From the NCBI GenBank assembly GCA_016795465.1, contig JAEUHK010000018.1, forward strand, positions 1-64,000: a stretch of 64,000 nucleotides of DNA, written 5' to 3'. Made by a program: the position numbers and the translations under genes. Under the pieces are notes generated by a model, which was not told where the DNA came from, ran no database searches, and worked only from the letters and a program-made list of their open reading frames with translations. Positions 3,213-4,728 of the stretch are shown one piece after another. The DNA is from Verrucomicrobiaceae bacterium. Lineage in GTDB: Bacteria; Verrucomicrobiota; Verrucomicrobiia; Verrucomicrobiales; Verrucomicrobiaceae. How positions within the stretch are numbered: position 1 is the first letter of the stretch; each line of letters begins with the position of its first letter.

Positions 3213-3848
3213 ATGAAGGCGGAGCGCCGGAGACGCTACGCAAGGCAGGTGTTCATCAACTGTCCGTTTGATGGCGAGTATCTGCCCCTCATGCGCGCCA
3301 TCGTCTTTGTGCTCAAAGCCTGCGACTATGTGCCGCGATGCGCCTTGGAGGCAGACAGCGCCACGGAGGTGCGAGTGGAGAAAATCCTCCGAATCATCAA
3401 CGAATGCGCTTTGAGTGTCCATGACATCTCCCGCACTCAGATGGATCGCCAATCGAAGCTTCCTCGGTTCAACATGCCCTTCGAGTTGGGCTTGTTCATG
3501 GGCGCTGCAAAGCTCGGCGGTGCCCGCCAGAGGAAGAAAGGGGCTCTCATCCTCGATGTGGAGCCATACCGTTATCAGAAGTTTCTATCCGACATCGCCG
3601 GACAGGACATCCGGGCGCACCGAAACGACCCCGCCGCAGCCATCGGAGCCGTTCGGGAGTGGCTGAACACCCACCACGCGCAGAATCAGCCGCTGCCCGG
3701 CAAAACCGCCTTGGTGAACCTCTACAAAAGGTTTCAAAAACGCCTGCCGGTTATGTTGAAGGACCTTCAGCTCAAAGAGTCGGAAATCTCCTTCGTGGAC
3801 TGGTCGAAGCTGATCGGCATCTGGCTCGAAACCGTGGCCAAAGCCTGA
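3213..3848 (+). CDS. TIR/nucleotide-binding-like protein, candidate defence effector
   Basis: A 211-residue soluble protein. It starts with a basic tail and then VFINCPFDGEYLPLMRAI (residues 13-30), the first strand and helix of a Rossmann-like TIR/nucleoside-deoxyribosyltransferase fold. Next come a second strand (VPRCALE), a helix, SVHDIS, and then RFNMPFELGLFMG with Glu91. In TIR-like nucleotide-binding proteins the glutamate in FELG is the candidate NAD-glycohydrolase residue. The C-terminal third is helical and unassigned. Similar proteins are usually annotated as hypothetical or nucleotide-binding. It is coupled to the 52-aa gene upstream and lies beside a palindromic array, a typical accessory setting. 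The domain reading is from motif pattern only. Confidence 0.65.
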   Translation: MKAERRRRYARQVFINCPFDGEYLPLMRAIVFVLKACDYVPRCALEADSATEVRVEKILRIINECALSVHDISRTQMDRQSKLPRFNMPFELGLFMGAAKLGGARQRKKGALILDVEPYRYQKFLSDIAGQDIRAHRNDPAAAIGAVREWLNTHHAQNQPLPGKTALVNLYKRFQKRLPVMLKDLQLKESEISFVDWSKLIGIWLETVAKA

Positions 3849-3863
3849 CCAACCCGCCTCCCG

Positions 3864-4227
3864 ATTCTAGAGCCATAGTTTTCTGGAGGGAAAGGAAGGT
3901 CCGTAGGGCTCGGAAAACCCTTTTCTGGAGCCGGGGGAGACTCCCTGGGCCTCAGAAAACTCTTTTTTCTAGAATGACCACCTGACCTTGGCTGCGGACG
4001 ACTCTTTTCCGCACCCCGGACACCTTCCCCACCCCTGGCCCAACTCTTTTCCGAGGGTCGGGGAGATGGACTTGGTGCTGGAAAACTCTTTTTCAGCATC
4101 GGGGGAGACTCCCCTGGGTGCGGAAAACTCTTTTCCAGCCCGACGGGAGACTCCCCTAGCTGCGGAAAACTCTTTTCCGCACCCGCCGGACATTCCCCTC
4201 GGTGCGGAAAACTATTGGCTCTAGAAT
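3864..4227. repeat. Array of eight 42-bp palindromic units with inverted ends
   Basis: The core ACTCTTTT (variants ACCCTTTT and ACTATTGG) recurs at 3917, 3959, 4001, 4043, 4085, 4127, 4169 and 4211, exactly 42 bp apart each time and with no indels. Most units carry one palindrome like GCGGAAAACTCTTTTCCGC and a second like GGGGAGACTCCCC. The ends are near-perfect inverted repeats: ATTCTAGAGCCATAGTTTTC at 3864-3883 against its complement, with one extra base, at 4207-4227. An inner copy of TCTAGAATGA occurs near 3967. No clear target-site duplication is seen. Because 42 is 14 codons, both strands stay open as 14-residue repeats. Confidence 0.9.
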
Positions 4228-4452
4228 GAGGAGGTGGAGGCAGGTCTGGAAAAGCATCCATTCAGACCCGCAGGCGCAGTTTTTGTGGTGATTCGAGGCT
4301 CACGCCCATGGCCGACGGCCCAAAGACCAGCAGCAGCCTCAAGGACACAGATAAATGATCTCCAAGATTCGGGGCGGCCCACAGTTTGACTGAAATGGGA
4401 ATCTGTGGGCCTCCTTGAATCTTGTGGGAAAACTTGGATTGGGATCATATCC
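4228..4452. other. Intergenic stretch containing a long two-tier hairpin
   Basis: No gene seen. CAAGATTC (4363-4370) pairs with GAATCTTG (4417-4424), and inside it GGCCCACAG (4376-4384) pairs with CTGTGGGCC (4403-4411). The two stems are perfect and separated by a symmetrical 5x5 internal loop, with an 18-nt apical loop. It could be a structured RNA or a binding site for a dimeric protein. Confidence 0.6.
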
Positions 4453-4728
4453 ATGCCTCCGAAGTCAGGATGTCTGAGCCTGTTCTTCAACGACGCCCTG
4501 CCGCGAAACGGCTACCTGAAGGACGGAGACCTGCTGCCCTTCGACGTGATCCTTTGTCAGCCGGATGAGGAGTTGGAGGCGTTTCTTCGGCTTTACGCTC
4601 ACTCGGTCCACTGTGATCCATCACTACAGAGCTCAAAGCGCGGGCTGCTGCGAAGCCGCGAAGCGAATCCCGGACGACGAACGAGGAACCAAGAACGAAG
4701 AACCATTCATCCAACACTCCCGTTGTGA
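4453..4728 (+). CDS. Possible small gene of unknown function
   Basis: A 91-residue frame from ATG 4453. The first 60 residues (LSLFFNDALPRNGYLKDGD, then LLPFDVILCQPDEELEAFLR) have protein-like composition. The last 30 are Arg-rich and read like non-coding sequence, so the frame may be a truncated or decayed gene. No ribosome-binding site, no recognisable domain and no obvious operon partner. The next gene is convergent and ends at 4736. Confidence 0.3.
   Translation: MPPKSGCLSLFFNDALPRNGYLKDGDLLPFDVILCQPDEELEAFLRLYAHSVHCDPSLQSSKRGLLRSREANPGRRTRNQERRTIHPTLPL

Follow-up and report, generated by a model that had tools for sequence, protein, structure and literature searches.

The array described here shares with BIME/REP sequences (PMC3733652) its extragenic palindromes, the alternation of palindrome types within a cluster, and use as an insertion target for IS elements. 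MITEs and fold-back elements resemble it in being short and non-coding, with inverted ends and dispersed copies. CRISPR arrays likewise contain evenly spaced palindromic repeats, with cas9 next to two homes of the array and cas12b next to two. Iteron and centromere-type arrays also consist of tandem symmetric sites in helical phase. In a literature search, neither the element nor the gene-linked (FN3-array) locus to which its relatives belong was found to have been described.

The window (the whole 64,000-nucleotide stretch of Verrucomicrobiaceae DNA that was analysed) carries one such element. We regard the chances as evenly balanced that it represents a non-coding type of array found in Prosthecobacter-type Verrucomicrobiaceae, present here as a dispersed, solitary copy, and that this array is a helically phased series of palindromes acting at the level of DNA.

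The palindrome array in the window

The element occupies positions 3854–4237 of the window (plus strand, 384 bp) and comprises nine palindromic slots at a 42-bp step; its orientation is set by the left end, which is conserved among relatives. The earlier note had described a regular 42-bp palindrome array with eight cores at 3864–4227. Such an array is indeed present, well above chance, with wider limits and with nine slots once both end slots are counted. Identity at a lag of 42 bp, in 300-bp stretches across the 64 kb, reaches its maximum of 0.61 at the array, versus 0.42 for the next best stretch and a mean of 0.30. The sequence GGAAAACTCTTTTCC is matched at ≤3 mismatches 10 times in the window versus 1.3 times expected by chance, and nine of these ten matches fall inside the array (two of the nine being the same sites read on the second strand).

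Palindromes that pair at five or more of six positions are centred at 3919, 3961/3962, 4087, 4108, 4129, 4150 and 4171, the last five spaced by exactly 21 bp. Well-kept units contain two palindromes, as had been proposed: P, rich in A/T (GGAAAACTCTTTTCC type), and Q, rich in G/C (GGGGAGACTCCCC type), with their centres 21 bp apart. The nine dyad-symmetric slots are positioned four helical turns from one another, with intermediate palindromes at two turns.

The left terminal inverted repeat (CCGCCTCCCGATTCTAGAGCCA, 3854–3875, plus strand), an end that relatives keep, pairs with the right one (TGGCTCTAGAATGAGGAGGTGG, 4216–4237, minus strand) at 19 of 22 positions, a good match that falls short of the near-perfect inversion first claimed; model R1 also matches the right repeat as an inverted left end (G000:C40:4173-4237:-). 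The slots themselves are all read on the plus strand. Slot 0 (3867–3907) is formed by CTAGAGCC-ATAGTTTTCTGG and the half-slot GGGAAAGGAAGGTCC, and is one base short (AGAGCC-ATAG versus AGAGCCAATAG in relatives); the complete lack of indels reported earlier holds from slot 1 onward. Slot 1 (3908–3949) contains P centred at 3919 (GGAAAACCCTTTTCT) and Q at 3940 (GGGGAGACTCCC), and slot 2 (3950–3991) contains P centred at 3961 and an internal recurrence of the end motif (TCTAGAATGACC, ~3969–3980). Diverged P palindromes are found in slots 3 (3992–4033, GGACGACTCTTTTCC) and 4 (4034–4075, GCCCAACTCTTTTCC). They are followed by slot 5 (4076–4117; P at 4087, Q at 4108), slot 6 (4118–4159; P at 4129, GGAAAACTCTTTTCC, and Q at 4150) and slot 7 (4160–4201; P at 4171), whose half-slot GGACATTCCCC mirrors that of slot 0. 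Slot 8 (4202–4237, GCGGAAAACTATTGGCTCTAGAAT) is the right end slot, and it and slot 0 are mutual inverted copies. The predicted fold of the entire element is a single long hairpin.

The gene at 3213–3848 (plus strand), outside the element, had been called TIR-like and noted next to the array, a proximity that seems incidental. It has zero Pfam, NCBIfam or PADLOC matches, and its homologues in G002, G012 and G076 end at the stop codon with the array absent there; the gene was rejected as part of the element. Two other dispersed repeats are found in the window: a different repeat at 4354–4482, with inverted arms at 4363–4387 and 4400–4424 and with 83–90% identical copies in G000, G011 and G031, and a short one at 4623–4705 (the AGCGCGGGCTGCTGCGAAGCCGCGAAGCG region) with matches across many genus members.

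The possibility had also been raised that the minus-strand frame at 3767–4261 is a gene encoding a low-complexity protein of 14-residue repeats. That frame is open in the window and in nine of 16 family arrays, and is broken by stops in the other seven. Single-base deletions occur in the family (five copies other than the window's carry them), and a sister class of arrays has a period of 41 bp. In the proposed comparison of synonymous and non-synonymous change, substitutions were scattered over the codon positions, with no consistent dN/dS signal of purifying selection in any frame. Because 7 of 16 arrays contain stops in this frame, no consistent codon signal is present and three does not divide 41, we conclude that the array is non-coding. 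Protein coding in any of the six frames was rejected on the stops and the absent codon signal; the repeat protein is already refuted as a property of the family, and such a gene in the window is extremely improbable.

Copies and movement

The family to which the array belongs (family A) has three more places in the same genome: two arrays of nine slots and a remnant of two. The core, at ≤1 mismatch, is matched 12 times in 6.8 Mb, all within four arrays, indicating a low copy number. The suggested search of related genomes for arrays with the same core, conducted with the exact core and a left-end model, showed that 10 of the 48 genus members carry family A, one of them (G004) as a fragment only. 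That fragment (L104, G004:C186) passes into another short repeat (CCATCCGACCGATGGTTTGCT...). Nine is the usual number of slots, seen in 11 of the 15 arrays that were taken to be complete; the remaining arrays have 4, 8, 10 and 11. A subfamily B, present twice in G000 and also in G043, has cores unrelated to those of A and shares its end, register and architecture. One B array (L245, G000:C1) lies 355 bp from a phage/integron-type integrase gene and has an FN3 gene fragment on its opposite side. DNA resembling an insertion sequence starts within the array in L066 (near 2320) and in L062 (near 2274).

The copy in the window is a solitary, dispersed representative of the family. It is 94% identical over 294 bp to L062, from another species; leftward, the homology extends (to within two bases) as far as 3854, where the inverted repeat begins, and the left flanks beyond are unrelated. 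Since the left homology stops at the edge of the inverted repeat, the copies have therefore moved. The right side of L062 is interrupted by an insertion, leaving the right boundary of the movement defined by the window copy alone.

Several of these properties would be accounted for if the array were simply a selfish element of MITE-like or BIME-like kind, non-autonomous, mobilised in trans by a transposase and of no function to the host: the inverted ends (19/22), the end of L062 homology at the inverted repeat, the dispersed and low-copy occurrence, and the folding of the window element into one long hairpin. Against this explanation, a clean right repeat is absent or degenerate in most relatives (as seen in unit alignments), no target-site duplication is visible by inspection at 3854/4237, and, RAYT proteins aside, no associated transposase was found. 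An empty site, the comparison proposed earlier, was sought among relatives and was not found. An origin from a virus, phage or plasmid was rejected, as the array has no match of that kind. The positions and periods of the gene-linked arrays described below would be unexpected for a selfish element, which we consider an unlikely alternative.

Arrays upstream of coiled-coil/FN3 genes

The flank of one array, used as a query, identified 26 loci containing a gene whose product is predicted to form a long helical hairpin followed by a C-terminal FN3 domain (a moderate-confidence model, mean pLDDT 65). In this sample, which is non-random because every locus was picked for its resemblance to a flank that carries an array, a 42- or 41-bp array is located directly upstream of the FN3 gene at 22 of 26 loci (L245 having a gene fragment only); of the other four, L254 displays an 83-bp periodicity, another is interrupted by an insertion, and the last two lack an array. 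A collagen-like gene often lies downstream of the FN3 gene, and an HTH gene often lies on the far side of the array. In these Verrucomicrobia such arrays are normally at home in the intergenic stretch before genes of this structural-protein family. Arrays of family A also occur away from this home, in unrelated contexts.

The unit sequences of arrays at FN3 loci are wholly different from one another. Despite this turnover, the array period tracks the FN3 gene tree (three labels, 2 changes versus 9.5 when shuffled, 0/200), with the 41-bp loci forming a single FN3 clade (100/99). Arrays of 41-bp period (L227–L237 and L288) are found 5' of this second clade of FN3 genes, including in one genome of another family, G059, where the FN3 homologue has a 41-bp array. 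The agreement between period and gene tree is the strongest sign that spacing is the conserved property. The earlier suggestion of selection on spacing is backed more firmly than the window alone allowed, as the period is conserved across arrays of unrelated sequence. The spacing itself probably matters, the letters of the units changing completely, and its conservation could partly reflect plain descent of the arrays rather than selection.

An HTH gene adjoins the array at C5, G036:C305, G009:C96, G032:C1, L225, L226 and L239, and the cores are homogeneous within many arrays and different between arrays. Both observations would be expected if the array were a set of operators for a neighbouring XRE-type HTH regulator, in which the P palindromes are bound and core and recognition helix evolve together. 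However, no genome other than G000, G009 and G036 yielded the family-A HTH gene, and six further genomes have A arrays and no detectable A-type HTH gene; the window copy itself has no HTH neighbour. In addition, L226 and L231 have near-identical HTH coding sequences and different cores (the L231 HTH gene carrying a stop), which argues against simple co-evolution. A regular-expression search for HTH motifs beside arrays returned nothing. The HTH gene was rejected as an obligatory partner on the basis of the A arrays in genomes that have no A-type HTH gene; it is an attractive candidate partner and not a required one, and the operator explanation is very unlikely.

Many arrays have defence genes as neighbours, among them those for Cas9, Cas12b, Hachiman and restriction systems. 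Applied to the neighbours of 24 array loci, PADLOC returned specific defence matches at nine (Cas9, PDC-S31, a methyltransferase, a TIR/ThsB-like protein, TIR with PDC-M28B, HamA/HamB, a type II restriction pair, a type IIG enzyme and a type I R subunit), versus two generic matches (kinase-like and ATPase-like) among 19 window genes used as a control; some candidates were chosen for their defence-like appearance and all control genes belong to a single region, and the nearness of arrays to defence genes should therefore be read as a lead rather than as an enrichment that has been measured. Three further array loci have Cas12b or Cas9, the Cas9 of L226 being assigned solely by its resemblance to that of L221. 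At L221 (G000:C5:62000-80000) a type II CRISPR locus, comprising a repeat array, cas2, cas1 and cas9 (with cas1, cas2 and the repeats named from sequence only), lies beside an HTH gene, a family-A array and an FN3 gene. Genes resembling cas12b adjoin FN3-linked 42-bp arrays at L239 and L231, in G016 and G032.

DNA or RNA action, and comparison with known systems

Comparison of stems between subfamilies A and B (which are related sequences) gave 57 cells changed on both sides versus 28 ± 4 when shuffled (0/500), exceeding every slid register. As judged from these alignments, the palindromes are kept through two-sided changes between subfamilies, and the spacing is kept while unit sequences are replaced. 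Most A and B arrays also have plus-strand folding energies below those of column permutations (z from −4 to −10, with G37 an exception); several 41-bp arrays are weakly better than their permutations, and some, like G37, are no better.

The covarying stems, the folding of most A and B arrays, and the position of the arrays upstream of FN3 start codons are each compatible with an RNA device, in which transcription of the array would yield a string of hairpins (a leader, attenuator or sponge RNA) before the FN3 and collagen-like genes. The two strands fold about equally, however, and no consistent excess of G-U over A-C pairs is seen overall (43 GT versus 36 AC). The best Rfam result is a chance match of 13.9 bits against a gathering score of 45, and a known structured RNA family was rejected on that score. 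A hairpin RNA also offers no obvious cause for a limit of 41 or 42 bp across unrelated sequences, and we judge such a device decidedly unlikely. Action at the level of DNA is preferred because of the 41/42-bp period in unrelated sequences, the lack of a strand preference in wobble pairs and the similar folding of both strands. The earlier suggestion of a mobile or regulatory hairpin array is supported by the dispersed copies, the left boundary at the inverted repeat, the position upstream of one gene family and the covarying stems.

We believe that the array may work as DNA, as a phased series of symmetric sites that would form a nucleoprotein or cruciform array. It likely acts in cis, and the phased array may shape expression of the gene behind it. 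Recombination would homogenise the units within an array, such that the core drifts between arrays while selection maintains the helical phase. Solitary copies, that in the window included, would be moved or duplicated arrays bounded by terminal inverted repeats, often residing in islands rich in defence genes and perhaps having lost their function. More tentatively, and with somewhat less than an even chance of being correct, the arrays may constitute an undescribed class of cis-element: gene-linked arrays with an inherited and selected 41/42-bp spacing and units that turn over, controlling coiled-coil/FN3 and collagen-like genes that often border defence systems. Arrays that are unrelated in sequence and yet keep exactly the same spacing, in different species and also in a second family, offer a natural way to test whether selection acts on the geometry of DNA rather than on its sequence. 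That they are frequently close to CRISPR-Cas, Hachiman and restriction genes may also be of use in marking the limits of verrucomicrobial defence islands.

The known systems introduced above differ from the array in distinct ways. No recognised replicon or partition genes, as would accompany iterons or centromere-type sites, are found among the neighbour genes inspected. CRISPR arrays have unique spacers, which are absent here, the half-slots being themselves repeated palindromes in register; the true CRISPR array at the C5 locus is separate from the palindrome array. With respect to MITEs and fold-back elements, terminal inverted repeats are present in the window copy and degenerate in most relatives, and unrelated flanks are seen on the left sides of the window copy and L062 (the right side of the latter being cut by the insertion). 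The array differs from such elements in its internal regularity and in its recurrent gene-linked home, and no target duplication was seen. The GTAG or CGTC tag at the foot of REP/BIME palindromes is not conserved in the unit alignments (by inspection), and 12 core matches in 6.8 Mb fall short of their high copy number. Compared to BIMEs, the array is of low copy, usually has nine slots with conserved end slots in an exact 41/42-bp phase, and is linked to one gene family. These palindrome arrays resemble satellite DNA, yet they are bacterial and tied to genes.
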